Assembly (NCBI RefSeq): GCF_003610235.1
Contig: NZ_RAPR01000001.1
Span: 1,612,001-1,676,000, forward strand
Direction of reading: 5' to 3'
DNA from: Catellatospora citrea
GTDB lineage: Bacteria > Actinomycetota > Actinomycetes > Mycobacteriales > Micromonosporaceae
Length of the DNA stretch: 64,000 bases
Shown: positions 37,562-62,638 of the stretch, in pieces
How positions within the stretch are numbered: the first letter of the stretch is position 1
Layout: every line of letters starts with the position of its first letter
Translations under genes and position numbers: made by a program
The notes under the pieces: model-generated
The model's input: only the letters and a program-made list of their open reading frames with translations
Told to the model about the DNA's origin: nothing
Databases searched by the model: none

Positions 37562-37603
37562 CCCGCCCGCCACCGCCAACCCCCGCCGGCCCGCCCGCCA
37601 CCA

Positions 37604-37670
37604 GGCGCAACTCTTAAAGAGTTGCGCCTTTCGGCGTGGTCGCAGGCCGCGACTCTTCAAGAGTTGCGGC
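37604..37670 (+). repeat. 67-bp double-hairpin repeat, copy 1
   Basis: Hairpin A, 37604-37628, is a perfect palindrome (12-bp arms around a central A, containing AACTCTTAAAGAGTT) followed by TTT. After 17 bases comes hairpin B, 37646-37670, with one wobble (GACTCTTCAAGAGTT core). The same layout with the same 17-base spacing recurs at 56401-56467. Here it lies just after the PAC2 gene, and hairpin A may serve as an intrinsic terminator. Confidence 0.8.
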
Positions 37671-37745
37671 ACGGGGCGGACGCCGCGCGGTACGGCGGGG
37701 CGGGGTCGGGCGGCGTGTGGGAGGCGACACGCCGTGCAAGGGCTT

Positions 37746-49004: not shown

Positions 49005-49991
49005 TCAGCCTCCCCCAGCCTCCTGATCCGTCCACGGTGCGGCGAGCCTCTCCCGGGCGGCGGCCGTCAGGCTGCCGTACAGGCGCAGCCGGGCCATGCC
49101 GCCGTCGGGATAGATGTCCAGGCGTGCCCCGTCGACCGGGCCGTCGTACGACAGCCGGAACCGGTGGCGGGTGTCGGGCTGCAGCCGGGTGCGTGCCAGC
49201 AGCGGTTCGCCGCCGGACCCGGTCAGCGCCGCCCAGCCGGGGGCGTTGCCTTTGAAGTGCGAGGTGTCCAGCTCGGCCAGCGCGAGCACGCCCGGCGCGG
49301 CGAGCCGCACCTGGACCCAGTCGTTGCCGCCGTCGCGCCGCCGCCGGGTCTCCCAGCCCTCGCCCATGCTGGTTGCGAGTCCAGGCAGCAGCAGGTTGCC
49401 GGGTGAGCCGTAGAAGCGGTCGCTGCAGTCGACGACCCGGCCGCCCAGCTCGGCGGCCGCCAGGTCGACCGTGTCGGGCAGCAGGCGCGGATCGGGGGCC
49501 GGGGTGCCGTGCACCCGCAGCCGGGCCACCCCGCCGTCGGGGTGGATGGTCAGCCGGACATGGGTGACCAGCGGGCCGGCGTCGACCGGGAAGCGGTTGC
49601 GGGTGTCGCCGAGCAGGGCCGAGCGCTCGACCAGCGGGAACCAGTCCGCGCCGGCCAGCTCGGCGGGCGAGGGGTAGCCGTCCGCCCGGCAGCCCTCGAC
49701 GGACGCCTCGGGCGGGTAGTTGCCGGTGAAGAACGCGGTGTCGACGACGACGCCGTGCACGTGGCCGGGCGCGCCGAGCCGCAGCACGGCGAGGTCGTGG
49801 CCGGGTTCGCGGCGGCGGCGCGTCTCCCAGCCGTCGTACACCTGGCCTTTCGCGCCGAAGGTGCGCGGGGTGAAGGTCGGCGCCCACGGGTTGACCAGGT
49901 TGTCACGCTCGGCGAAGAACTCGTTGTTGGCCGCGACGACGCTGCCCCCGACGGCCCGCGACGCGAGGTCGAGCAACTCCTCAAAACTCAT
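49005..49991 (-). CDS. alc: Allantoicase
   Basis: 328-residue enzyme hydrolysing allantoate to ureidoglycolate and urea. It consists of two similar jelly-roll halves: the first has NPWAPTFTPRTFGAKGQVYDGWETRRRREPGHDL, the second SMGEGWETRRRRDGGNDWVQVRLAAPG, both with the GWETRRRR motif and followed by DTAFFTGNYPP or DTSHFKGNAPG. Length and duplicated motifs identify the family. Its ATG overlaps the stop of a 24-codon mini-ORF (ATGA), which is itself coupled to allantoinase. Confidence 0.95.
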   Translation of the reverse strand: MSFEELLDLASRAVGGSVVAANNEFFAERDNLVNPWAPTFTPRTFGAKGQVYDGWETRRRREPGHDLAVLRLGAPGHVHGVVVDTAFFTGNYPPEASVEGCRADGYPSPAELAGADWFPLVERSALLGDTRNRFPVDAGPLVTHVRLTIHPDGGVARLRVHGTPAPDPRLLPDTVDLAAAELGGRVVDCSDRFYGSPGNLLLPGLATSMGEGWETRRRRDGGNDWVQVRLAAPGVLALAELDTSHFKGNAPGWAALTGSGGEPLLARTRLQPDTRHRFRLSYDGPVDGARLDIYPDGGMARLRLYGSLTAAARERLAAPWTDQEAGGG

Positions 49992-50062
49992 GCCCGCTCC
50001 TCGCTGCGCTCGTCGCGTGCACGAGTGACGTGCCTGCTGATTCGCTCGCGAAGCTCGCTCAT
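49988..50062 (-). CDS. 24-codon mini-ORF bridging allB and alc
   Basis: Reads MSELRERISRHVTRARDERS plus EERA and stop. Its ATG overlaps the allantoinase stop (ATGA) and its TGA overlaps the allantoicase ATG (ATGA), so one ribosome could pass through all three frames. The DNA contains the actinobacterial intergenic repeat type built from GAGCGAGC/GACGAGCGCAGCGAGGAG; a relative lies at 60405-60473. It may be a translational bridge rather than a functional peptide. Peptide function is not claimed. Confidence 0.55.
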   Translation of the reverse strand: MSELRERISRHVTRARDERSEERA

Positions 50063-51360
50063 GCCCCTCCCCCCGGCCGGATCAGGCGGCCGATCGGCTC
50101 GACGCCGGCGAGGCGGCCGCGCAGCCAGGTGTCGCGGACGACGCCGCGCAGGTGGCGGCCGTCGTACGGCGAGACGTGGTGGCGGTGCAGCAGCCGCGTC
50201 GCGTCGACGGTGAACTCGGCGTCCGGATCGAACGCGACCAGGTCCGCGTCGGCGCCCTCGGCGATGCGCCCCTTGCGGGGCAGGCCGACCAGGTCGGCGG
50301 TGTTGCCGGCCATCCAGCGCACCACGTCGGCCAGGCTGTGCCCGCGCTGCGCCGCGGCGGTCCAGATCAGCGGCAGCCCGAGCTGCACGGACGCGATGCC
50401 GCCCCAGGCGGTGCCGAAGTCGCCCGCCTTCAGCTCGGGCGGGCACGGCGAGTGGTCGGACACCACACAGTCGATCACGCCGTCGGCCAGCGCCTGCCAC
50501 AGCGCGTCCTGATGGGACTTGTCCCGGATCGGCGGGCAGCACTTGTACTGCGTGGCGCCGTCGGGCACCTGGGACGCGTCCAGGGTCAGGTAGTGCGGGC
50601 AGGTCTCGGCGGTGATGCGGACGCCCTCCCGGCGGGCCGCGGCGATCAGCGGGAGCGCGTCGGCGGCGGCCAGGTGCAGGATGTGCACCCGCGCCCCGGT
50701 GCGCTGGGCCGCGTCGATCACGGCGGCGACGGCCCGGCGCTCGGCGCGCGGCGGGCGCGAGGCGACGAAGTCCGTGAAGTGCTCGCCGTGCGCGGCGGTG
50801 ACCAGGGACGGGTCCTCGGCGTGCAGCACGAACAGGGCGTCGACCGCGCCGAGCGCCTCCTCCAGCCCAGCCGGGTCCAGCGGCGGGAACTCGGGCACGC
50901 CCGAGTCGACGAGGAATGCCTTGAACCCGAACACGCCTTGGCTGTGCAGGGCGGGCAGCTGCCGGGCGTTGCCGGGCACCGCGCCGCCCCAGAAACCGAC
51001 GTCCACGAAGCACTGCTCGACGGCCGCGGCGCGCTTGACGTGCAGCGCCTGCACGTCGACCGTCGGCGGAATCGAGTTCAGCGGCATGTCGACGATGGTG
51101 GTCACGCCGCCCGCGGCGGCCGCCCGGGTGGCGCTGTCGAAGCCCTCCCACTGGGTGCGCCCCGGCTCGTTGACGTGCACGTGGGTGTCGACCAGGCCGG
51201 GCAGCAGCGCGCAGTCCCCCAGGTCGATGGCGTCGTTGCCGGCCAGCGCCTGGAATCCGGCGACCGTGGCGATGACGCCGTCGCGGATGCCGACGTCGGC
51301 GGGCCGTTCACCGTCCGGGGTGAACGTGCGGTGCGAGCGCAGGATGAGGTCGTAGTTCAC
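50059..51360 (-). CDS. allB: Allantoinase
   Basis: 433-residue cyclic amidohydrolase opening allantoin to allantoate. Metal-site motifs are LVDTHVHVNEPGR (near residue 58), the carboxylated Lys in GFKAFLVDSGVPEFP (near 145), HAEDPS (near 180), HILHLAAADA (near 237), TAETCPHYLTL and VVSDHSPCP (near 310). GRTQWEGF and the GVPEFPPL loop distinguish it from hydantoinases. The start is GTG, overlapping the stop of the preceding gene (GTGA). Confidence 0.95.
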   Translation of the reverse strand: MNYDLILRSHRTFTPDGERPADVGIRDGVIATVAGFQALAGNDAIDLGDCALLPGLVDTHVHVNEPGRTQWEGFDSATRAAAAGGVTTIVDMPLNSIPPTVDVQALHVKRAAAVEQCFVDVGFWGGAVPGNARQLPALHSQGVFGFKAFLVDSGVPEFPPLDPAGLEEALGAVDALFVLHAEDPSLVTAAHGEHFTDFVASRPPRAERRAVAAVIDAAQRTGARVHILHLAAADALPLIAAARREGVRITAETCPHYLTLDASQVPDGATQYKCCPPIRDKSHQDALWQALADGVIDCVVSDHSPCPPELKAGDFGTAWGGIASVQLGLPLIWTAAAQRGHSLADVVRWMAGNTADLVGLPRKGRIAEGADADLVAFDPDAEFTVDATRLLHRHHVSPYDGRHLRGVVRDTWLRGRLAGVEPIGRLIRPGGGA

Positions 51361-52589
51361 AGCGGCTCCAGCATAGATCGATCGACGCCGAATTCACCGA
51401 CATCCAGCGCGCCGCACTGCACGGCGCGTCGCAGGAATCCGGACAGCGCCCTTGCCGTCGCGGGTTCGTCCAGGTAACCGGTGCCCCGCGCACCGCTGTC
51501 GCGCTGCGCGGCGCTGTCGCGCCCGGCCAGCCAGGCCCGCAACCGGGTCGCGGCCGACGGCGCGCCCTGGCGAAAGAAGCCGTACGCTGCCGCGTAGCGC
51601 GTCGGGAGCTGCGCCGGATGCAGGTCCCAACCCTGGTAGAAGCCGCGTTCGAGGCTGCGGCGGACCAGTCGCAGGTGCAGCGCCCAGGCGGCCTGCACGG
51701 CGGCGGTGTCCCCGATCGGCAGCACGTTGGTGGAGCCGTCGACCACGCGTACGCCGGTGCCCGCCGCGGCGACCTGCATCACCTGCTTGGCGTGGTCGGC
51801 GGCGGGATGCTCCATGGACTGGTACGCCGCCGCGATGCCCAGTGCCGCCGAGTAGTCGTAGGTGCCGTAGTGCAGCCCCACGCAGCGCCCCTGCGACAAA
51901 TGAATCATCGCGGGCAGCGGGCAGACCCCGTCCGGCCCGAGGATCGCCTGCGGCATCTCCACCTGCAGTTCGAAGCGCAGCTGCCCGGCGGCCGGTTCGA
52001 GGTGGCGGCACAGCCACACCAGCGCCTCGACCTGCTCCACCGAGCTGACCTTCGGCAGTGTGATCACGAAGTTCGGCGGGATCGTGCCCAGCGCGTCGAG
52101 CAGCCGTTCGAGGGTGCGCAGCGCGCGGGGGCGGGTGTCGGGCTCCAGGCTCTTGATCCGTACCCCGGTGAACGGGGCCGGGCGGGCGGCCAGGAATGCG
52201 GCGACGCTGCGGGCGTGCGCGTCTTCCGTGGCGTCCTCGCGGCGGCCGTAGCCGTCCTCGAAGTCCACCCGCAGGTCCTCGATCGGCTCGGTGGCGAGCT
52301 TGCGGGTGATCCGCTCGTGCAGCTCGTCCGGATACGGCAGGCCGTGCTCGGCCAGCGCAGCGAGGGCCTGCTCGCCCCAGCGCTGCCCCAGGCCGGTGCG
52401 CACCCGGTCGGCGGGCACGTACACGGTGTGCAGCGGCTGGCGGCCGGGATCCTCGCCCGGGTAGCGGTCGCGGCGCAGCCCGTCGGCCACGGCCAGGATG
52501 CGGTCCAGTTCCCGCGCGGGGACCCGGGCCGTCCCGTCGCGCGGCTCGCGCGGCACGCCGAGGAACTCGTCGGTTCCGGCGGGCGTCAT
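51357..52589 (-). CDS. HpcH/HpaI-type aldolase/lyase homologue (DUF6986-like)
   Basis: 410-residue TIM-barrel protein of the citrate lyase beta / HpcH aldolase superfamily, in a branch annotated DUF6986 as far as I recall. Motifs are DLRVDFEDGYGRREDATED near residue 120 (metal-binding Asp/Glu), FVITLPKVSSVEQVEALV, LQVEMPQAIL (Glu) and GLHYGTYDYSAALGI. It overlaps malate synthase by one base (TGATG) and allantoinase by four (GTGA). Relatives cleave or condense glyoxylate or acetyl units, so a role in glyoxylate or ureidoglycolate metabolism is likely. No ureidoglycolate lyase is seen in the operon, making this a candidate for that missing step. Confidence 0.8.
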   Translation of the reverse strand: MTPAGTDEFLGVPREPRDGTARVPARELDRILAVADGLRRDRYPGEDPGRQPLHTVYVPADRVRTGLGQRWGEQALAALAEHGLPYPDELHERITRKLATEPIEDLRVDFEDGYGRREDATEDAHARSVAAFLAARPAPFTGVRIKSLEPDTRPRALRTLERLLDALGTIPPNFVITLPKVSSVEQVEALVWLCRHLEPAAGQLRFELQVEMPQAILGPDGVCPLPAMIHLSQGRCVGLHYGTYDYSAALGIAAAYQSMEHPAADHAKQVMQVAAAGTGVRVVDGSTNVLPIGDTAAVQAAWALHLRLVRRSLERGFYQGWDLHPAQLPTRYAAAYGFFRQGAPSAATRLRAWLAGRDSAAQRDSGARGTGYLDEPATARALSGFLRRAVQCGALDVGEFGVDRSMLEPL

Positions 52590-54109
52590 CAGTCGATCAG
52601 CTCCCCGGCCGGCAGGGTCAGGAACTCCACGAAGTCGTCGGCGAGCGCGACCTGCTCGAAGATCCTGCGGGCGGGGGCGTACTCCGGCCCCAGCACGGCC
52701 ATCTCGCCCTCGATCAGCTCTTCCAGCAGCTCGCGGGTGACCGGGGTGGTGCCGCCGTCGAGAAGCGCGCCGTTGTGCAGCCACTGCCACAGCTGGGAGC
52801 GGGAGATCTCGGCGGTGGCGGCGTCCTCCATCAGGTTGTCGATCGCGGCCGCGCCGTTGCCGTTCAGCCAGGACTGGATGTAGCGGATGCCGACGTGGAT
52901 GTTGGCGCGGGCCCCGACCATCGTCGGCTCGCCCTCGGTGGTCCGCACGTCGAGCAGGTCGTGTGCGTCGACGTGCACGTCCGGGCGCTGACGGGAGAGC
53001 TGGTTCGGCGCGCCGCCCAGGGCCTTGTCGAACACCTCCAGGCAGAGCGGCACCAGGTCGGGGTGCGCCACCCAGGAGCCGTCGAAGCCGTCGGCGGCCT
53101 CACGTTCCTTGTCCTGGCGGACCTTGGCCAGCGCGGTCGCGGTGACCCCCGGGTCGCGCCGGTTCGGGATGAAGGCGGCCATGCCCCCCATCGCGTACGC
53201 GCCGCGACGGTGACACGTCTTGACCAGCAGCTGCGCGTACGCCCGCAGGAACGGCGCGGCCATCGTCACCTGCCCCCGGTCGGGCAGCGTGTACGCCGGG
53301 AACGCGCGGAACTTCTTGATCAGGCTGAACAGGTAGTCCCAGCGCCCCGCGTTCAGGCCGCTGGCGTGGTCGCGCAGCTCCCACAGGATCTCGTCCATCT
53401 CGAACGCGGCCGTGATCGTCTCGATGAGCACGGTGGCCCGGATGCTGCCGTACGGAATGCCCTGCAGCTCCTGCGCGGCCGTGAACACGTCCTGCCAGAG
53501 CCGCGCTTCGCGGTGGCTCTCCATCTTCGGCAGGTAGAAGTACGGACCGCTGCCCCGGGCCAGCAGCTCGGCGGCGTTGTGGAAGAAGTGCAGCCCGAAG
53601 TCGACCAGCGCGGCGACGCCGGGCGCACCGTCGACCTCGAAGTGCCGCTCGTCGAGGTGCCAGCCGCGCGGCCGCACCACGATGGTCGGCAGCGGGCCGG
53701 GATGCAGGGCGTACAGCTTGTCGCCCTGCTGCAGGCTGATGGTCCGGCGGACGGCCTCGTACAGGCTCTGCTGGCCGCCGATCACGTTGGCCCAGTGCGG
53801 GGTGTTGGCGTCCTCCAGGTCGGCCAGCCACACCTTCGCGCCCGAGTTCAGCGCGTTGATGGTCATCTTGCGGTCGGTCGGGCCGGTGATCTCGACCCGG
53901 CGATCGACCAGGTCGGCCGGGGCGGGGGCGACGGTCCACTCGCTCTCGCGGATCCGCGCGGTCTCCGGCAGGAAGTCCAGCGTGCCGGTGCGGTCGATCT
54001 CGGCCTGCCGGGCCTGGCGCGCCGCGAGCAGTTCGTCCCGGCGGGGGCGGAAGCGGCGCTGCAGTTCGGTGACGAACTGGACCGCCTCGGGCGTCAGGAT
54101 CTCGGTCAC
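52589..54109 (-). CDS. aceB: Malate synthase A
   Basis: 506-residue isoform A malate synthase, condensing glyoxylate with acetyl-CoA to malate. Recognisable parts are [43 protein letters not shown] (Asp/Glu acid pair), [38 protein letters not shown] and GMAAFIPNR. Its position inside the purine operon, directly after the xanthine dehydrogenase large subunit (TGA then GTG start), shows it is dedicated to the glyoxylate released from allantoate. No isocitrate lyase is nearby. Confidence 0.95.
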
Positions 54110-56380
54110 TCATACCCCCACGATGTGTTCGGGCCGGACCGGCACCCTGGTCAGCGCGGCACCGGTGGCCGCCCGGATCGCCGCGACGACGGCGGGTGTG
54201 GACGAGATCGTGGGCGGCTCGCCCACCCCGCGCAGGCCGTAGGGCGAGTGCGGGTCGGCCAGTTCGAGCACGTCCACTGTCATCGGCGGCATGTCCATGA
54301 TCGTAGGGAGCAGATAGTCGGTGAAGGAGGGATTGCGCACCTTCCCGTCCACGAGCTGAATCTCCTCCATCAGCGCCAGGCCCAGTCCCTGGGCGGTGCC
54401 GCCGTGGATCTGGCCGGTGACCGCGGCCGGGTTGACGGCCTTGCCGACGTCCTGCGCGGTGACGATCTCGACGACTTTCACCAGGCCGAGCTCGGTGTCG
54501 ACGTCGACGGTGGCGCGGTGCGCGGCGAAGGCGTACTGCACGTGCGCGTCCCCCTGGCCCGTCTCCGGGTCGAGCGGATGGGTCGGCCGGTGCCGCCACT
54601 GCACCGTCTCCTCGATCGCCTCGTCGCCGAGCACGTCCGCGAGGTCCGCGACGACCTCGCCCTCGGCGTCGACCACCCGTCCGTCGACCAGGCGCAGCTC
54701 GCCCGCGATGCCGTCGACGCGGTCCAGCAGGCGGGTGCGGATCGCCTGGCAGGCGGCGCGGACGGCGCCGCCGGTCATGTAGGTCTGGCGGGAGGCCGAG
54801 GAGGAGCCGGCGCTGCCGACGGCGGTGTCGGCGGGGGCGATGGTGACCTGGTCGACGCCGAGCTCGGTGCGCACGATCTGCGCCTGGACGGTGACCAGGC
54901 CCTGGCCCACCTCGGCGGCGGCGGTGTGCACCAGCACCGCGGGACGGCCGCCGACCAGTTCCAGGCGCACGCGGGCGGTGGCGTAGTCGTCGAAGCCCTC
55001 GGAGAAGCAGACGTTCTTGATGCCGATGCCGTAGCCGACGCCGCGGACCACGCCCTCGCCGCGGGTGGTGTTGGCGGTGCCGCCGGGCGGGAAGTCGGCC
55101 TGCCCGGCCGGCGGCTTCGACTGGACCAGGCGGAGCAGCTCGGCGACCGGGGCGGGGCCCTCGACGAGCTGGCCGGTGGGCATGCGGTCACCGGTGTGCA
55201 GGGCGTTGCGGACCCGGACCTCCACCGGGTCCAGGCCGAGGGCCGCGGCGAGCTTGTCCATCTGCGACTCGTACGCGAAGCACGCCTGCACCGCGCCGAA
55301 GCCCCGCATCGCCCCGCACGGCGGGTTGTTGGTGTAGAGCCCGTACGCGTCCATCACCACGTTCGGCACGTCGTAGGGGCCGATGCCCAGCGTCGCCGCG
55401 TTGGCCACGACCGCGCCGGAGCTGGACGCGTACGCGCCGCCGTCGAGCAGGATGCGGGCCTTCACGTACACCAGGCGGCCGTGGGAGTCCGCGCCGTGCT
55501 CGTAGCGCAGCCGGGCCGGGTGCCGGTGCACGTGGCCGAAGAACGACTCCTCGCGGCCGTACACCATCTTCACCGGGCGGCCCGTACGCAGCGCCAGCAG
55601 GCAGGCGTGCACCTGCATGGACAGGTCCTCGCGCGCGCCGAACGCCCCGCCCACCCCGGCCAGGGTGAGCCGGACCTTGTCGGCGGGCATGCCCAGGCAC
55701 GCGGCGACCTGCTGCTGGTCGACGTGCAGCCACTGGGTGGCGATGTAGAGGTCGACGCCGCCGTCGTCGGCGGGCACGGCCAGCCCCGACTCGGGGCCGA
55801 GGAAGGCCTGGTCCTGCATGCCGACCTCGTACTCCCCGGTCACCACGACCGCGGCGGTCGCGTGCGGGTCGCCGCGGCGGATCGGCACGTGGCGCAGCAG
55901 GTTCGGCCGGTCGGCGTGCACCCGGGGCGCGCCGTCGTCGTGCAGCGCCGCCTCGGGATCGGTGACCGGGTCGAGCACGTCGTAGGAGATCCCGATCGCC
56001 TTGACGGCGCGGCGCGCGGTCTCCGGGTGGTCGGCGGCCACGATCACGATCGGCTCGCCCTGGTAACGGACCTCGTCGGCGGCCAGCACCGGCTGGTCGA
56101 CGTGCTCCAGCCCGTACAGCCGCCGCCCAGGCACGTCTTCGTGCGTGAGCACCGCGTACACCCCCGGGATGCGCAGCGCGGGGCCGAGATCCAGGTGCGT
56201 GATCCGCGCCCGCGGATGCGGGCTGCGCAGCGTCGCCCCCCACAGCATGTCATCGGCCCACAGATCGGACGAGAACGCGAACTCCCCCGTCACCTTCAGC
56301 CGCCCGTCCGGCCGCACCGGCGACGCCCCCACCCCACCCGCCACGGTTGCCGCCAACCCCACATGCACCGTCGCGCTCAC
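54110..56380 (-). CDS. Xanthine dehydrogenase, molybdopterin-binding subunit
   Basis: 756-residue large subunit. It has SPHPRARITHLD near residue 50, QDQAFLGPESGLA, GGAFGAREDLSMQVHA (Mo-pterin binding), PPCGAMRGFGAVQACFAYES and EVGQGLVTVQAQI. The active-site Glu is in YGLRGVGEPPTIS near the C-terminus. The start GTG at 56380 overlaps the TGA of a 45-codon mini-ORF that contains a palindromic repeat. It is separated from the other two dehydrogenase subunits by the 8-oxoguanine deaminase gene, an unusual order. Confidence 0.92.
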   Translation of the reverse strand: MSATVHVGLAATVAGGVGASPVRPDGRLKVTGEFAFSSDLWADDMLWGATLRSPHPRARITHLDLGPALRIPGVYAVLTHEDVPGRRLYGLEHVDQPVLAADEVRYQGEPIVIVAADHPETARRAVKAIGISYDVLDPVTDPEAALHDDGAPRVHADRPNLLRHVPIRRGDPHATAAVVVTGEYEVGMQDQAFLGPESGLAVPADDGGVDLYIATQWLHVDQQQVAACLGMPADKVRLTLAGVGGAFGAREDLSMQVHACLLALRTGRPVKMVYGREESFFGHVHRHPARLRYEHGADSHGRLVYVKARILLDGGAYASSSGAVVANAATLGIGPYDVPNVVMDAYGLYTNNPPCGAMRGFGAVQACFAYESQMDKLAAALGLDPVEVRVRNALHTGDRMPTGQLVEGPAPVAELLRLVQSKPPAGQADFPPGGTANTTRGEGVVRGVGYGIGIKNVCFSEGFDDYATARVRLELVGGRPAVLVHTAAAEVGQGLVTVQAQIVRTELGVDQVTIAPADTAVGSAGSSSASRQTYMTGGAVRAACQAIRTRLLDRVDGIAGELRLVDGRVVDAEGEVVADLADVLGDEAIEETVQWRHRPTHPLDPETGQGDAHVQYAFAAHRATVDVDTELGLVKVVEIVTAQDVGKAVNPAAVTGQIHGGTAQGLGLALMEEIQLVDGKVRNPSFTDYLLPTIMDMPPMTVDVLELADPHSPYGLRGVGEPPTISSTPAVVAAIRAATGAALTRVPVRPEHIVGV

Positions 56381-56514
56381 CCCGCCACCGCCCCACTCCT
56401 GGCGCAACTCTTAAAGAGTCGCGCCTTCCAAAAGGTTCTGAGGCCGCGACTCTTTAAGAGTTGCGGCGGGTAGGGCGGGCGGGGGGCGCGCGAGGGCGGC
56501 ACGGGCTTGGTCAT
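56377..56514 (-). CDS. 45-codon mini-ORF containing the double-hairpin repeat
   Basis: The ATG at 56514 overlaps the 8-oxoguanine deaminase stop (ATGA) and the TGA at 56379-56377 overlaps the GTG of the dehydrogenase large subunit (GTGA). The frame runs uninterrupted through both hairpins of the 67-bp repeat, giving LLKSRGL and LFKSCAR peptides. It is probably a translational bridge that keeps coupling across the inserted repeat. Confidence 0.5.
   Translation of the reverse strand: MTKPVPPSRAPRPPYPPQLLKSRGLRTFWKARLFKSCARSGAVAG
56401..56467 (-). repeat. 67-bp double-hairpin repeat, copy 2
   Basis: Two 25-bp palindromes, 56401-56425 and 56443-56467, separated by 17 bases, matching copy 1 at 37604-37670 in arm sequence and spacing. 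Differences are mostly compensated or wobble positions, while the 17-base spacer differs in sequence. It lies in the only wide gap of the purine operon. Confidence 0.8.
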
Positions 56515-57863
56515 CGGCCGGCCTTCCGGAGCAGGGTGCGGCTGACGCGGGTCAGGTCGCGGGCCAGGGACTCCTCGTCGGTGTGCACGAGGCGGCCGCC
56601 GCGGACGACGACGTCGCCGCCGACGAGCAGCGCTTCGACCCGGGCGGGCGGGCCGAAGACGAGGGCGGCGACCGGATCCTCGATGCCGGCGTGGCCGAGG
56701 CCGTCGATCCGCCACAGGGCGAGGTCGGCGAGCCGGCCCGGCTCCAGGACGCCGAGTTCGCCGTCGCGGCCCAGGCAGCGGGCCCCGCCGGTGGTGGCCA
56801 GGGCGAGCGCTTCGCGGGCGGTCAGCGCGGCCGGGCCGCCGCGCAGCCGCGCGGCCAGCATCGCCTGGCGCAGCTCCGGGCCCAGCTCACCGGCCTCCTG
56901 CGAGGCCGCGCCGTCGACGCCGAGGCCGACCGGCGCGCCGGCGTCGAGCAGGTCGCGCACCCGGGCGATGCCCGCGCCGAGGCGGGCGTTGGAGCTCGGG
57001 CAGTGCGCCACGCCGGTGCCGGTCGCGCCGAGCCGGGCCACCGCGGCGTCGTCGAGGTGCACCCCGTGCGCGAGCCACACGTCGTCACCGAGCCAGCCGA
57101 GCTTCTCCGCGTACTCCACCGGGGTGACGCCGAAACGGTCGCGGCAGAACGCATCCTCCTCGACCGTCTCGGCCAGGTGCGTGTGCAGCCGTACGCCGTG
57201 GGCGCGGGCCAGGGACGCGGCCTCGCGCATCAGGTCGGAGGTGACCGAGAACGGCGAGCACGGCGCGACGGCGACGCGCACCATCGCCGACGGCGACGGG
57301 TCGTGGTGCTGCTCGATCGCGGCCGCGGTCGCCGCGAGCGCGGCGTCGGTCGACTCGACGACGTTGTCCGGCGGCAGCCCGCCCTGCGACACGCCGAGGT
57401 CCATCGAGCCGCGGCAGGCGTGCAGCCGTACGCCGACCGACGCGGCCGCCTCGACCTGGGTCCCGATCAGGTCACCCGAGCCGCGCGGGAACACGTAGTG
57501 GTGGTCGGCGGCGGTGGTGCAGCCCGACAGCGCCAGCGCGCTCAGGCCCGCGGTGGTGGTGACGTACACGAGTTCGTCGTCGAGCCCGGCCCACACCGGA
57601 TACAGCTCGACCAGCCAGTCGAACAGGTTGCTCTGCTGGGCCAGCCCGCGGGTGGCCCACTGGTAGAGGTGGTGGTGGGTGTTGACCAGGCCGGGCGTGG
57701 CCAGGCAGCCCCGGCCGTCGATGACCTGGTCGGCGGGTCCCGCGAAGTCCCCGCCGCCGACCTCGGTGATCCGGTCGCCGTCGACCACGACATGCCCGCG
57801 CGGGTATTCCGCGCCCGCCGCGTCGACGGTCGCGATCGCACAGCCGTTGATGACGGTCCTCAT
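56511..57863 (-). CDS. 8-oxoguanine deaminase
   Basis: 450-residue amidohydrolase converting 8-oxoguanine to urate plus ammonia. Motifs are LVNTHHHLYQWATRGLAQ near residue 65 (HxH metal site), TTAADHHYVFPRG near 115, HTHLAETVEEDAF near 225, AHGVHLDDAAVARLG near 260 and GLGVDGAASQEAGEL (metal Asp) near 320. The family also includes guanine- and triazine-type deaminases, but the QQSNLFDWL and DHHYVFP signature and the operon point to 8-oxoguanine deaminase, which feeds urate to the uricase encoded upstream. Confidence 0.88.
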   Translation of the reverse strand: MRTVINGCAIATVDAAGAEYPRGHVVVDGDRITEVGGGDFAGPADQVIDGRGCLATPGLVNTHHHLYQWATRGLAQQSNLFDWLVELYPVWAGLDDELVYVTTTAGLSALALSGCTTAADHHYVFPRGSGDLIGTQVEAAASVGVRLHACRGSMDLGVSQGGLPPDNVVESTDAALAATAAAIEQHHDPSPSAMVRVAVAPCSPFSVTSDLMREAASLARAHGVRLHTHLAETVEEDAFCRDRFGVTPVEYAEKLGWLGDDVWLAHGVHLDDAAVARLGATGTGVAHCPSSNARLGAGIARVRDLLDAGAPVGLGVDGAASQEAGELGPELRQAMLAARLRGGPAALTAREALALATTGGARCLGRDGELGVLEPGRLADLALWRIDGLGHAGIEDPVAALVFGPPARVEALLVGGDVVVRGGRLVHTDEESLARDLTRVSRTLLRKAGR

Positions 57864-58342
57864 CGAATCCCCGTCTCCGTCACGCCGCCGGCGGCGGCCA
57901 GGCGTACCGCATCCATGATCTTCTCGTAGCCCGTGCAGCGGCACAGGTTGCCGGCCAGGGCCTCGCGGATCTGCGGGTCGGTGGGCTTCGGCACGCGGGC
58001 GAGCAGGTCGTGCACCGAGACGATCAGCCCCGGCGTGCAGAAGCCGCACTGCACCGCCCCGGCCTGCAGGAAGGCCCGCTGCACCGGATCCAGCTCGCCC
58101 TCGGGCGCCAGGCCCTCGACGGTGCGCACGTCGCGCCCGGCGGCCTGCCCCGCGGCGACCAGGCAGGCGCAGACCGCGGTCCCGTCCAGGTACACCGTGC
58201 ACGAACCGCACTCGCCCTGCTCGCAGGCGTTCTTGCTGCCGGCCAGGCCGAGCCGCTCGCGCAGCACGTAGAGCAGGCTCTCGCCCGGCCACACGTCGTC
58301 GGCGGTCCGGGTCGTGCCGTTGACCGTGCAGGTCAGCCGCAT
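57860..58342 (-). CDS. Xanthine dehydrogenase, iron-sulfur subunit
   Basis: 160-residue two [2Fe-2S] subunit. The plant-type ferredoxin cluster lies in KNACEQGECGSCTVYLDGTAVCAC (near residues 38-60) and the second cluster in CGFCTPGLIV and GNLCRCTGYEKI (near 100-140). Electrons pass from the molybdenum site to FAD. It overlaps both neighbours: ten bases with the FAD subunit and ATGA with 8-oxoguanine deaminase. Confidence 0.94.
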   Translation of the reverse strand: MRLTCTVNGTTRTADDVWPGESLLYVLRERLGLAGSKNACEQGECGSCTVYLDGTAVCACLVAAGQAAGRDVRTVEGLAPEGELDPVQRAFLQAGAVQCGFCTPGLIVSVHDLLARVPKPTDPQIREALAGNLCRCTGYEKIMDAVRLAAAGGVTETGIR

Positions 58343-59184
58343 AGGTCCCTCCAGGCCCAGGTCAGGGTGCGCCGGGCCAGGACGGCCAGCGCATGGCGGC
58401 GGTACGCGGCCGTGCCGCGCACGTCGTCGATCGGGGCGGCGGACGCGGCGACCAGCTCGCCGAAGCGCCGCGCCACGTCGGGGTCGAGCGCGGCGAGGGT
58501 GTCCCAGGGCAGTTGCCCGGCGGCGAACAGCTCCGCCTCGACGGCCCGGCGCGGGGTCGGCGCGGCCGAACCGATGCCGGTGCCCACCGTGCGGCGGCCG
58601 GGGTGCAGCGCGAGGGCGAACGAGCTGACCGCGATCACCATCGCGTTGCGGGTGCCGATCTTCGCGAACTGCTCCGGACCCGCGGCGGGCCGCACCCACA
58701 CCGCGGCGATCAGCTCGTCCGGGGCGAGCACGCTGCGCTTGGGGCCGGTGAAGAACTCGCCGATCGGCACCAGGCGGGTGCCGCGCACCGACGCCAGCTC
58801 CACCTGCGCACCGGCGGCCAGCAGCGGCGGGTGGCCGTCCCCGGCGGGCGACGCCGAGCCCAGGTTGCCGCCGAGCGTGCCCCGGTTGCGGATCTGCGGC
58901 GATCCGACCGTGCGCGCGGCCATCGCCAGCCCCGGCAGCCGGTCGCCCAGCTCCTCGATGAGCCGGGTGTACGAGACGCCCGCGCCGACGCGCAGCAGCT
59001 CCCCGTCCATCGCCCAGGTGGTCAGGTCGCCGATGCGGGTCAGGTCGAGCAGCACGCCCGGTCGCCGCCGGTGGAAGTTCAGCTCGACCATCACGTCGGT
59101 GCCACCGGCGAGCGGCACCGCGTCCGGCCGGTCGGCCCTGATCGCCAGGGCGTCGGCCCAGGTCGACGGCGTCATGAAGTCCAT
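58333..59184 (-). CDS. Xanthine dehydrogenase, FAD-binding subunit
   Basis: 283-residue FAD subunit. VPLAGGTDVMVELN near residue 25 binds FAD pyrophosphate; TVGSPQIRNRGTLGGNLGSASPAGD near 90-115 is the second FAD motif. A CO-dehydrogenase-type C-terminal domain ends the protein. It shares one base with the uricase stop (TGATG). Confidence 0.94.
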   Translation of the reverse strand: MDFMTPSTWADALAIRADRPDAVPLAGGTDVMVELNFHRRRPGVLLDLTRIGDLTTWAMDGELLRVGAGVSYTRLIEELGDRLPGLAMAARTVGSPQIRNRGTLGGNLGSASPAGDGHPPLLAAGAQVELASVRGTRLVPIGEFFTGPKRSVLAPDELIAAVWVRPAAGPEQFAKIGTRNAMVIAVSSFALALHPGRRTVGTGIGSAAPTPRRAVEAELFAAGQLPWDTLAALDPDVARRFGELVAASAAPIDDVRGTAAYRRHALAVLARRTLTWAWRDLCG

Positions 59185-60050
59185 CAGGCCGCCCCCAGGT
59201 CCCACGCCGGCCCCGGCGGTGGCGCGTCGTCGCGCAGCACGGTGCCCTCGATCAGGCCGTACGGCCGGTCGGCCGCGACATAGACCGCGTCCGGGTTGTC
59301 CAGGCCGAACGGGGACAGGTCGACCAGGAAGTGGTGCCGGTTCGGCAGGGCCAGCCGCACCTCGGCCACCTCGGGCACCCGCTGGAGCACCCGCTCCCCC
59401 ATCGCGTACAGGGTCTGCTGCAGCGAGCGGCTGTACGTGTCGACGAACGCGCCCACCAGAGCGTCCCGCACCGCCTCGAACGCGGCGTTCCAGTCGACGT
59501 CGGCCGAGGCGAACCGCCAGCGGGCGTCGACCGCCGTGGCGAGGATGCGGTCGTCGGCCTCCGGCAGCGTGGTGTACCGGTCCCGCGGGAAGCCCTTGAA
59601 CATCGAGCCCGTCGTGTTCAGCAGCGTCAGCCCGTGCAGCCCGCCCACGACCCAGGCCTGCTCGGCGGTCGCGGTCACCGTCGCGGTGCGCACCTCGTCC
59701 CCGGCGCGGGCGAACGAGTGGCCGCCCAGGCGCCGCCAGCCGTACGACTCGACGTGCACCTGCGCCTGCTCGATCGCGTCCTGCCCGGCGACGAAATGGC
59801 GGGCCAGGCGCAGGCCGAACTGCTCGATGCTCGCGAAGCCGTCCCGGGCGAACGCGTACACCGTGTTCTTCTGCGTGTCGGTGGGCAGCACGTCGGCGTT
59901 GTCGCCGGTCAGGTGCGTGGCGTCGAGGCGGCCCGCGAGCCGGGTGCTGACGTTGAGGTCGGTCAGCTCGTGGCGCTCGCCGTCGCGGACCACGGTGACC
60001 AGGCGGCACTCGGCCTTGCCGTAGCGGTTGGGGCCCAGTCGGATCGTCAT
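59184..60050 (-). CDS. Urate oxidase (uricase)
   Basis: 288-residue cofactor-free uricase, urate to 5-hydroxyisourate. Motifs are NRYGKAECRL (catalytic Lys12), TGDNADVLPTDTQKNTVYAFA (catalytic Thr), the two T-fold halves, RDRYTTLPEADDRILAT, and LPNRHHFLVDLSPFGLDN near the C-terminus. It is translationally coupled to HIU hydrolase (TGATG). Having its own uricase distinguishes this aerobic route from anaerobic purine degradation. Confidence 0.96.
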   Translation of the reverse strand: MTIRLGPNRYGKAECRLVTVVRDGERHELTDLNVSTRLAGRLDATHLTGDNADVLPTDTQKNTVYAFARDGFASIEQFGLRLARHFVAGQDAIEQAQVHVESYGWRRLGGHSFARAGDEVRTATVTATAEQAWVVGGLHGLTLLNTTGSMFKGFPRDRYTTLPEADDRILATAVDARWRFASADVDWNAAFEAVRDALVGAFVDTYSRSLQQTLYAMGERVLQRVPEVAEVRLALPNRHHFLVDLSPFGLDNPDAVYVAADRPYGLIEGTVLRDDAPPPGPAWDLGAA

Positions 60051-60376
60051 CAGGACCCCCGGTAGGTGGTGTAGCCGAACTTGCTCAGCAGCAGCGGCAC
60101 ATGCAGGTGCCGGTCGGGGTCGGTGACGTCGAAGACCACGGTCACCTCGGGGAAGAAACTGCCGAGCCCCTGGTATGCGGCGACGTCGAAGCGCAGCCCG
60201 TACCGGCCCACCAGCCACTGCTCGGCCGGCACCCAGTCGGCGAGCCGCCCGTCGGTGTTCGTGATCCCGGTCGCCACCGTGACCCAGCCGTACTGCCCCA
60301 GCCGCTGCAACGTCACCTGCACGTCCGCAGCGGGCTCGCCCCGGCAGGTGTCCAGCACATGCGTCGACAGGGTCAT
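60050..60376 (-). CDS. uraH: 5-Hydroxyisourate hydrolase
   Basis: 108-residue transthyretin-related protein hydrolysing 5-hydroxyisourate to OHCU. The N-terminal STHVLDTCRG (catalytic His6), the central YGLRFDVAAY and the terminal YRGS signature are diagnostic. GAGGGG lies upstream of the ATG. A gap of about 93 bp to the upstream decarboxylase gene is filled by a repeat-derived mini-ORF. Confidence 0.96.
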   Translation of the reverse strand: MTLSTHVLDTCRGEPAADVQVTLQRLGQYGWVTVATGITNTDGRLADWVPAEQWLVGRYGLRFDVAAYQGLGSFFPEVTVVFDVTDPDRHLHVPLLLSKFGYTTYRGS

Positions 60377-60404
60377 CGCGGGTATCCCCTCATCGCTCGC
60401 TCAT

Positions 60405-60473
60405 GCCTTCTCCTCGCTACGCTCGTCGGCGGCATGACACCTGCGACATGATTCGCTCGCTGCGCTCGTTCAT
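60405..60473 (-). repeat. GAGCG-type intergenic repeat with 18-codon mini-ORF
   Basis: Resembles 49984-50062: both contain CTCCTCGCT(G/A)CGCTCGTCG and GATTCGCTCGC followed by a CTC(A/G)-CATG end. On the minus strand an ATG overlapping the OHCU decarboxylase stop (ATGA, 60473) opens MNERSERIMSQVSCRRRA, ending in TAG at 60417. A second tiny ORF (MSER) follows just before the HIU hydrolase gene. It is probably an interspersed element tolerated at operon junctions. Confidence 0.55.
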
Positions 60474-61072: not shown

Positions 61073-62638
61073 ATGCGGCTACGTGACGTGCTGGAACAGC
61101 CGGGTGTCCGGCTGCCGGTGCTCGCCGGGGAGGGCGAGCTGGACCGTCCCGCCCACCTCGCCTACACGACCGACCTGCTCGATCCGGCGCGTTATCTGGC
61201 GGGCGGTGAGGTCGTGCTGACCGGCATGATGTGGCGGCGCGAACCCGCCGACTCCGAGCTGTTCGTCGCCGCGCTGGCCGGGGCCGGGGTGGCCGCGCTC
61301 GGCGCGGGCGAGGCGCTGCTCGGGCCGGTCCCCGCCGACCTGGTGGAAGCCTGCCGGCGGCACCGGCTGCCGCTGTTCGCGGTGCCCGCCGAGGTGTCGT
61401 TCCGCGAGGTGACCGACCGGATCAACACGGTGCTCTGGGCCGAACGTGAAGCCGGCGCGGTGGCCGCCCGGAGCCGCCGCCGCGGCCTGGTCGCCACCCT
61501 CGCCGCCGGGGCCGACCTGGCCGAGGTGTGGCCCGGCACGGGTGCCTGGGTGCTCACCAGCACCGGCCGCGTCATCGTCGGCGACCCCGCCGGCACGCCG
61601 CACGACCTCGCCGTCGGGCGGCGGCTCGCCACGGCGTTCCTGCGCGCGGACACCCTGCCGACCCGCTGCCGGATCGGCGACCGCGAGTTCCACCTCGACG
61701 CGCCCGCCCCGGCCGCGACGCCGGGCACCCGCTTCATCGCGTGCGCCGACCCCGCGCTGCTCGAAGAACTCGTCGAACTGACCGCCCTGGACGCGGCCCG
61801 CTCCGAACGCGCCCGCCGCATCGAACGCCGCCTCGCCGCCCAGCTCGCCGACGTCCTCACCGCCGCCGCCGACCCACCCGAACTGGCCGCCGCCCTCCAC
61901 GCCTGCGGCCTGCCCACCACCGGCCCCTACACCGTCCTCGTCGCCTCCCTCCCCACCCCGCCGGGCCCCGGCCCCGGCCCCGGCCCCGGCAGTTTCGGGG
62001 AAACTGCACGAAAAGGGTGCGCGGATCGTGCAGTTTCCCCGAAACTGCACGCCGCGGACGGCGCTGCCGTCGCGGTGGTGGAGGAGATGGTGCCGGGGGC
62101 CGTTGTGGCGAGCATGGGGGGTGAGGTTGTTGCGGTGGTGGCGGGGCCGGGTGGGGTCGGGGGGTTGCGGGAGGCGGCGCGGCATCTGACCGCGGCGGCC
62201 CGCGGGACGCGATTCGTGGCCGGGCTGAGTGAGCCCGCGACGGACGTCGCCGCGCTGCCCGGGGCGTTGTCCCAGGCCCGGCACGCCCACCGGTACGCCC
62301 TCGATCGGCCGGACCGGGTGTCCGTCATCGGCAGCGACGAGCTGGCCTCGCATGATCTGCTGCTGGCGAGCGTGCCCCGGGCGACGCGGCAGGCGTTCGC
62401 CGACCGGCTGCTCGCGCCGCTGCGCGCCTACGACGCCGACCACCACGCCGACCTGGTCCGCACCCTGCAGACCTTCCTGGCCTGCGACGGCTCCTGGACC
62501 CGCTGCGCGAGCGCGATGCACCTGCACGTCAACACGCTGCGCTACCGCGTACGCCGCATCGCCGACCTCACCGGCCGCGACCTCGACCGCTTCACCGACC
62601 GCGTAGACCTCTACCTCGCCCTACGCCTGGACGCGTAG
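61073..62638 (+). CDS. pucR: PucR-family regulator of purine catabolism
   Basis: 521-residue regulator. The N-terminal PucR domain (about 1-130) begins MRLRDVLEQPGVRLPVLAGE. The middle region is a diverged GGDEF-like (CdaR) domain, and the C-terminal HTH_30 domain has LVRTLQTFLACDGSWTRCASAMHLHVNTLRYRVRRI. Family members activate purine genes when allantoin or related products accumulate. Divergence from the purine operon supports this. Near residues 300-325 a 60-bp inverted repeat is inserted in frame (GSFGETARKGC and RAVSPKLHAADG), preceded by a GPGPGPG linker, an unusual feature. Confidence 0.92.
   Translation: MRLRDVLEQPGVRLPVLAGEGELDRPAHLAYTTDLLDPARYLAGGEVVLTGMMWRREPADSELFVAALAGAGVAALGAGEALLGPVPADLVEACRRHRLPLFAVPAEVSFREVTDRINTVLWAEREAGAVAARSRRRGLVATLAAGADLAEVWPGTGAWVLTSTGRVIVGDPAGTPHDLAVGRRLATAFLRADTLPTRCRIGDREFHLDAPAPAATPGTRFIACADPALLEELVELTALDAARSERARRIERRLAAQLADVLTAAADPPELAAALHACGLPTTGPYTVLVASLPTPPGPGPGPGPGSFGETARKGCADRAVSPKLHAADGAAVAVVEEMVPGAVVASMGGEVVAVVAGPGGVGGLREAARHLTAAARGTRFVAGLSEPATDVAALPGALSQARHAHRYALDRPDRVSVIGSDELASHDLLLASVPRATRQAFADRLLAPLRAYDADHHADLVRTLQTFLACDGSWTRCASAMHLHVNTLRYRVRRIADLTGRDLDRFTDRVDLYLALRLDA
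61989..62048 (+). repeat. 60-bp inverted repeat inside pucR
   Basis: Perfect 23-bp arms (61989-62011 and 62026-62048) with a 14-base loop. Each arm holds its own small palindrome (GCAGTTT-CGGGG-AAACTGC), so the DNA can form one long or two short hairpins. It is translated in frame in the linker between the middle and C-terminal regions. Confidence 0.8.

Follow-up and report, generated by a model that had tools for sequence, protein, structure and literature searches.

Short interspersed units at stop/start overlaps of Catellatospora genes as candidate portable adaptors for translational coupling

How is translation handed from gene to gene in an operon whose junctions carry repeats? The question is posed by a window of 64,000 nucleotides from Catellatospora citrea (Micromonosporaceae; genome of 9.33 Mb; contig NZ_RAPR01000001.1, positions 1,612,001 to 1,676,000), which holds a minus-strand purine degradation operon. 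A sequence-only reading of this operon had pointed to three mini open reading frames (mini-ORFs) that begin on the stop codon of one gene, and had proposed that repeats inserted at such junctions are kept only if they preserve termination-reinitiation coupling and hence act as translational bridges. Translation of all three showed that the mini-ORFs lie where they had been placed, and the other junctions of the operon, read by eye, abut or overlap, with a 2-base gap between alc and mobA. A single repeat class behind all three junctions was considered and rejected: two unrelated families are present, type A at allB/alc and uraD/uraH and type B at deaminase/dehydrogenase. We propose that type A units are very likely interspersed, portable coupling adaptors, similar to mycobacterial interspersed repetitive units (MIRUs), and that type A units insert at the stop/start overlap NTGA and leave an NTGA at each end. 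The features concerned are the following.

49988..50062, minus strand: type A unit with its mini-ORF, from the allB stop to the alc start; ATGA to ATGA, 24 codons (translation MSELRERISRHVTRARDERSEERA*), NTGA-to-NTGA spacing 71.
60401..60473, minus strand: type A unit at the uraD/uraH junction; its spacing of 69 breaks the frame.
56377..56514, minus strand: mini-ORF from the deaminase ATGA to the dehydrogenase GTGA; 45 codons, spacing 134, running through a type B palindrome.
56398..56470, no strand assigned: type B palindromic element, from a different family than type A.

A type A unit measures about 70 bp from its upstream to its downstream NTGA and holds an open mini-ORF, a Shine-Dalgarno (SD) sequence and the downstream start codon. 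Its core is an 18-base block, GACGAGCGYAGCGAGGAG, with a conserved 5' block before it and NTGA 5 nt after it, a spacing found in 137 of 139 segments from the C. citrea genome, the congener genome G002 and other loci. The block, which ends in GAGGAG, is the most conserved part of the unit; it doubled as our search key, and its conservation partly reflects the choice of matches. With at most one mismatch it occurs at 72 places in the whole C. citrea genome, against 1 for the reversed control. For context we sampled 2.25 Mb of this genome, made up of 93 copy-targeted stretches, 20 spaced stretches and the window; gene calls came from a simple method based on codon usage, whose start positions are approximate. 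At up to two mismatches, this sample contains 84 matches, 80 of which have the 3' NTGA; 62 of these lead into a called gene (with the called start exactly on the NTGA in 46), 15 into a next unit and 3 into neither. A recognisable 5' NTGA is also present in 65 units: it lies on the stop of a called gene in 38, on a preceding unit in 15, behind a same-strand gene but off its stop in 9, and behind an opposite-strand gene in 3. Units thus occur singly or in tandem in intergenic spacers, and tandem units have a common NTGA between them. One match (4099990) looks like a chance occurrence inside a gene.

The reading frame of the units carries most of the argument. Leaving out the 19 matches that lack one end (4 without a 3' NTGA, 15 without a 5' NTGA), the spacing between the two NTGAs is 2 modulo 3, the frame that bridges them, in 62 of 65 units, and it is so at many lengths: 71 (28 units), 68 (19), 59 (5), 65 (3), 74 (2), 62 (2), and 50, 77 and 95 (1 each), with 69, 73 and 75 occurring once each off frame. 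An open ORF ends in the 3' NTGA in 61 of the 65, and over the 62 units the bridging frame contains a single in-frame stop, whereas the two alternative frames have 9 and 41. If each array contributes a single unit, 47 of 50 are in frame, including 36 of the 38 that start on an upstream stop, and among first units of lengths other than 68 or 71 the figure is 14 of 17 (binomial p = 5e-5 for an expectation of 1/3). Congeners behave alike. G002 has 28 of 30 two-ended units in frame (35 matches), and in five congener genomes, counted with exact 5' and 3' blocks, 121 of 135 matches are in frame, at lengths of 48 (56 matches), 51 (55), 54 (9) and 60 (1). The remaining matches are 12 of length 50 and 2 of length 49, the latter off frame; in the length-50 copies checked, an extra upstream base restores the overall frame, in 2 of 2 copies from our sample and in both copies from G002, the latter making up 2 of the 12.

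How far such bridges exceed chance was judged by scoring an "exact bridge" with one loose rule at gaps of 8 to 250 bp. Type A gaps were bridged in 51 of 55 cases with ATGA or GTGA stops and in 54 of 64 over all stop types. Controls at non-repeat gaps gave 62 of 347 for CTGA upstream stops, which contain no start codon, and 26 of 154 for TAA or TAG, so that a single bridging example is weak evidence. Non-repeat gaps with ATGA or GTGA stops were bridged in 48 of 191 cases, a count that includes a few type A variants missed by the filter (e.g., 4013426, 3367403 and 2207340), and evidence for a general surplus of bridging mini-ORFs at coupled gaps of any sort is accordingly weak.

Empty type A sites in relatives are single NTGA overlaps. 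Comparison of flanks between our sample and relatives yielded 20 flank pairs from 65 arrays and 22 from 35, some with ragged ends, and gave two perfect empty sites (spacing 0), one in G002 for the C. citrea unit at 7605421 and one in C. citrea for a G002 unit, as well as three near-empty sites at 3, 3 and 9 nt; several negative estimates were not counted. Presence and copy number differ between species, as at one locus with a single unit here and three in tandem in Catellatospora sichuanensis, and at another the spacing is 68 here and 59 in G002. At 1814728 (L116), a unit that is whole in C. sichuanensis (L225) has lost its 5' half in C. citrea, and the upstream frame runs through the remaining 3' half as a C-terminal tail that stops on the unit's 3' ATGA, which is also that of the next gene.

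The three junctions of the operon were then read by script in C. citrea (G000) and ten congeners (G001 to G010), giving 33 states, one of them cut by a contig end. Three congeners could be tied to named species: the window's allantoinase is 91 to 96% identical (best segment) to those of C. sichuanensis (L009), Catellatospora vulcania (L010) and Catellatospora methionotrophica (L011), and the alc genes in these loci are letter-identical to those of G005, G010 and G003, respectively. At allB/alc, three genomes have a direct overlap, two a bridge of 29, C. citrea one of 71, G004 a chain of 44+71 and G002 a type A unit shortened in frame to 26; in G003 the ATG of the overlap shares the reading frame of alc, and in G005 (53) and G010 (107) the spacer consists of non-type-A DNA that still keeps the bridging frame. 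At uraD/uraH, five genomes overlap directly and four have chains (17 in G003, 20 in G002, 14+35 in G010 and 83+20 in G004). At deaminase/dehydrogenase, G001, G002, G004, G005 and G006 have a plain ATGA overlap, C. citrea and G010 have type B bridges of 134 and 143, both open in the bridging frame, and G007, G008 and G009 have in-frame N-terminal extensions; G003 is the state cut by the contig end. The palindrome read in frame into the dehydrogenase in G007 and G008 (L261 and L262) is a different one (AGATCTTGTGCGT.../ACGCACAAGATCT, and a relative). Of the 32 readable states, 30 keep an unbroken chain, an overlap or an in-frame fusion.

In the C. citrea uraD/uraH unit, the mini-ORF (60473-60417) is terminated by an in-frame TAG after 18 codons. 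The sequence-only reading had it end short of uraH and missed two micro-ORFs that link the unit's 3' ATGA to uraH by exact ATGA overlaps, so that the final links are exact even where the TAG breaks the chain, here and in G005.

60390..60404, minus strand: micro-ORF MSER*, beginning on the uraD unit's 3' ATGA.
60373..60393, minus strand: micro-ORF MRGYPR*, terminating on the uraH ATGA.

From this anatomy we infer a route in which translation of the mini-ORF, reinitiation, action of a hairpin in the mRNA and mobility of the unit would all take part. The putative unit would insert at an NTGA stop/start overlap, leaving NTGA at each end; a ribosome finishing the upstream gene would restart on the unit's ATG and read the mini-ORF; in doing so it would open a 3' hairpin in which the start codon of the next gene is enclosed; and it would then terminate on the 3' NTGA and restart on the downstream gene, helped by the SD sequence in the hairpin loop. 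In the allB/alc unit the elements of this hairpin are as follows.

49989..50023, minus strand: 3' hairpin of the allB/alc unit, with the 5' arm at 50023-50015, the SD-bearing 18-mer at 50014-49997 and the 3' arm with the alc ATG at 49991-49989.
49997..50002, minus strand: GAGGAG, Shine-Dalgarno-like, 5 nt upstream of the alc ATG, which presumably serves alc as its SD sequence.

The stem of this hairpin is formed by the nine bases immediately 5' of the 18-mer and a nine-base stretch that finishes with the downstream ATG. Among 94 distinct pairs of arms, pairing occurs at 624 of 846 positions, compared with 549 ± 6.5 in 2000 shuffles (maximum 576). In the 114 of 130 distinct segments available for the outer 6-bp stem, which includes the start codon, 87.0% of cells are paired (shuffles 79.1 ± 0.5, reached by 0 of 500), with 39 double-change cells against 6.5 ± 2.1 in shuffles and at most 40.7% pairing in slid controls; the 9-bp stem gives 74.9%, against 67.2 ± 0.6 in shuffles and at most 47.0% in slid controls. 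At the first base of the start codon the pair is U-A in 76 sequences, C-G in 9 and U-G in 3, with the base unpaired in 26, so that a G-starting codon faces C in 9 and U, as a wobble, in 3. Ten further 5' blocks are without the usual 3' block; one runs on into a gene, six have, at spacing 71 or 65, a hairpin predicted to surround an ATG or GTG, and three have none. The variants with a different 3' half, with no GAGGAG block and in some cases GGAG or GGAGG nearby, retain the spacing of 71 or 65. By folding, a 54-nt stretch of the alc unit (50028-49975) gives z = -2.36, and the predicted accessibility of the start codon is 0.31 in type A units (79), compared with 0.45 at native NTGA overlaps (150 sampled; p = 8e-5) and 0.58 when the upstream part of the unit is shuffled. 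Pairing of the start codon is thus a prediction supported by covariation and, weakly, by folding energy.

Several results count against this interpretation. With one unit per array, the frame is also kept in 11 of 12 units that do not lie on an upstream stop, so that frame keeping belongs to the unit itself and cannot be put down solely to filtering at bridged junctions. Stem pairs showing at least one double change are no more numerous than in shuffles (4 vs 3.2 for the 6-bp stem, reached by 205 of 500; 7 vs 5.7 for the 9-bp stem, reached by 81 of 500), related units can inflate covariation relative to shuffles, and RNAalifold on all 130 segments gave just a 3-bp stem, with an unhelpful covariance term. 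When all 75 nt of the alc unit are folded, a different structure is preferred (z = -1.09); z is -1.28 for the uraD hairpin on its own, and the accessibility of type A starts does not differ significantly from that of native gap starts (0.36, 150 sampled; p = 0.054). The hairpin could instead serve mobility at the DNA level. Finally, the two broken junction states are both the frame-broken uraD/uraH unit, in C. citrea and in C. sichuanensis, and the claim that repeats are kept only if coupling is preserved was consequently too strong. The proposed bridging role is supported for type A, by the NTGA empty sites and the three-base length steps; as a rule for repeats generally it is not supported, as type B shows.

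The type B palindrome had been given as 67 bp and is closer to 73 bp, with 31-nt arms at 56398-56428 and 56440-56470 that are 87% complementary. On the whole we favor the view that this copy is a terminator-like or REP-like element, tolerated because translation through it prevents polarity. Repetitive extragenic palindromic (REP) sequences and REPINs provide the comparison: type B likewise consists of palindromic arms, two of them 42 nt apart, and is extragenic and present in many copies, and it differs in lying mainly between convergent genes. Our sample holds 69 elements, with 62 neighbouring arms at 42 nt; 40 are convergent, 27 co-directional and 2 divergent, compared with 291, 959 and 276, respectively, of 1526 background gene pairs with gaps of up to 400 bp, and none of the 69 lies inside a called gene. 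A second element of the window sits in the spacer between two same-strand genes.

37592..37682, no strand assigned: second type B element.

Co-directional type B gaps are bridged in 4 of 17 cases, a rate similar to that of gaps without repeats (141 of 712). The deaminase/dehydrogenase copy folds at -83 kcal/mol (z = -7.35), and given such stability translation through the hairpin may matter for avoiding polarity; that both the C. citrea and the C. vulcania inserts are open in the bridging frame, and that 5 of the 11 genomes show the site empty, as a simple ATGA overlap, agrees with this. Against it, the countable co-directional gaps number only 17, of which 3 have ATGA or GTGA stops (2 bridges and 1 in-frame fusion), and no U-tract is seen at this copy. 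The insert is also patchy on the gene tree, present in C. citrea, G010 and G003 and missing from G005 and from the sister genome G004, a pattern that gain, loss or exchange could each have produced. We regard this type B palindrome as an element of gene ends, distinct from type A, that lies in an open frame where two genes are coupled.

For type A, we tentatively entertain a stronger version of the adaptor proposal, namely an insertable RNA device for strict coupling in which the mini-ORF, the SD sequence and the start-codon-locking hairpin would be selected as one cassette. With the same reserve, the sequence of the hairpin, including the long palindromic 3' variants without GAGGAG, would turn over freely while start-codon pairing and frame persist. 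If this holds, every insertion makes the downstream gene depend on the passage of ribosomes from upstream.

Selfish insertion without coupling seems to us rather unlikely. Here an in-frame master would have been copied, NTGA would be the target of a mobility enzyme and the hairpin a transposition end, with frame and pairing as by-products. Hairpin ends are typical of small mobile elements, the frame is kept where no upstream stop is bridged, and two internal GAGCGNAGCGAG-like copies, located by eye, share one frame, so that slippage between them would preserve it automatically. However, three-base steps also occur in the variable middle (spacings 48, 51, 54 and 60), where no such repeats were seen, and the checked length-50 copies have a compensating upstream base. 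Nor does this account readily explain the depletion of in-frame stops, the C that matches G-starting codons across the stem in 9 sequences, or the bridging frame kept by the non-repeat allB/alc spacers of 53 and 107. That the units are portable ribosome-binding sites (GAGGAG, 5 nt from ATG) or promoters, uncoupled from upstream translation, is improbable: the conserved GAGGAG block, though also the search key, and its near-constant distance to the start speak for it, and senX3-regX3 MIRUs can drive regX3 independently of senX3 according to the portion of PMC4213456 available, but an SD-only role requires no fixed frame, a covarying stem takes in the start codon, and variants without the block still keep a spacing of 71 or 65.

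The adaptor proposal has a precedent in mycobacteria, where the central idea of the sequence-only reading is already in print. The accessible part of a 2025 review (PMC12548453) presents MIRUs, with reference to Supply et al. 1997, as elements that seem to be mobile and that insert at start codons, whereby their internal ORF becomes coupled at -4 nt; units of 77 bp and 53 bp are mentioned in the corresponding part of PMC4213456. Type A units are likewise short, intergenic and capable of tandem arrangement, their ORF ends overlap the flanking stop and start, and they are inserted at NTGA coupling sites, while MIRU insertion at start codons is described in the same excerpts as doing little harm. 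At the level of anatomy, it is well supported that type A works like a MIRU. The likeness rests on anatomy and not on sequence comparison; the host family is Micromonosporaceae, and the covarying start-codon hairpin and the palindromic 3' variants are not mentioned for MIRUs in those excerpts. Coupling by RNA unfolding, also treated in the accessible part of PMC12548453, similarly involves structure around the downstream start that is opened by the upstream ribosome; in type A, structure, upstream ORF and SD sequence would come as a single insertable cassette. Among the literature matches listed, from a search that mostly lay outside subscription papers, none reported such units in Catellatospora or other Micromonosporaceae, frame statistics or a covarying start-codon hairpin, and an Rfam search at the gathering threshold found no known RNA family in the window.

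Within the genus, type A has 72, 4, 77, 18, 101, 98, 10, 1, 1, 3 and 52 places in G000 to G010, respectively. In 30 named genomes (up to two mismatches), C. sichuanensis has 115, C. vulcania 66, C. methionotrophica 26, Plantactinospora endophytica 12 and the others 0 to 8. A 200-genome search of the family used the 21-nt spacing of the frame-broken length and returned 7 matches in 5 genomes, which is no measure of distribution; the 3' block has 0, 0 and 1 matches in three mycobacterial genomes other than M. tuberculosis and M. leprae. Beyond the genus, Yinghuangia soli (L234, spacing 77), P. endophytica (L240, 74) and Micromonospora sp. ATCC 39149 (L239, 68) each have a single unit resembling type A whose bridging frame is open. 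On the C. citrea contig (G000:C1), the 72 places are uneven: none lies below 1.04 Mb, the stretch from 5.9 to 7.4 Mb contains two, and past 7.7 Mb (of 8.9 Mb) there is one.

A Pfam scan of ten proteins identified the operon as one of purine degradation (OHCU decarboxylase, HIUase/transthyretin, uricase, two amidohydrolases, molybdopterin-binding, malate synthase, allantoicase and MobA-like domains), with a divergent regulator of the PucR type. The malate synthase is encoded within 51357-54109, inside the operon, together with what we take to be an HpcH/citrate-lyase-like gene, and the pair would fit the use of allantoin-derived glyoxylate. A third palindrome family, with arms GCAGTTTC..GGAAACTGC 41 nt apart, is found at 61989-62048 within the frame of the PucR-type regulator (61088-62638, plus strand); the fetched stretches hold 11 such elements, 1 inside a gene, 5 convergent and 5 co-directional.

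Together, the type A units carry the idea behind MIRUs outside the mycobacteria and back it with strong statistics on the frame. Several genomes each offer dozens to about a hundred natural replicates in which to ask if passing ribosomes on is the sole purpose of short ORFs, and the same replicates bear on whether coupling is a matter of unfolding or of reinitiation, a question that the covarying start-codon hairpin makes testable with compensatory mutants.

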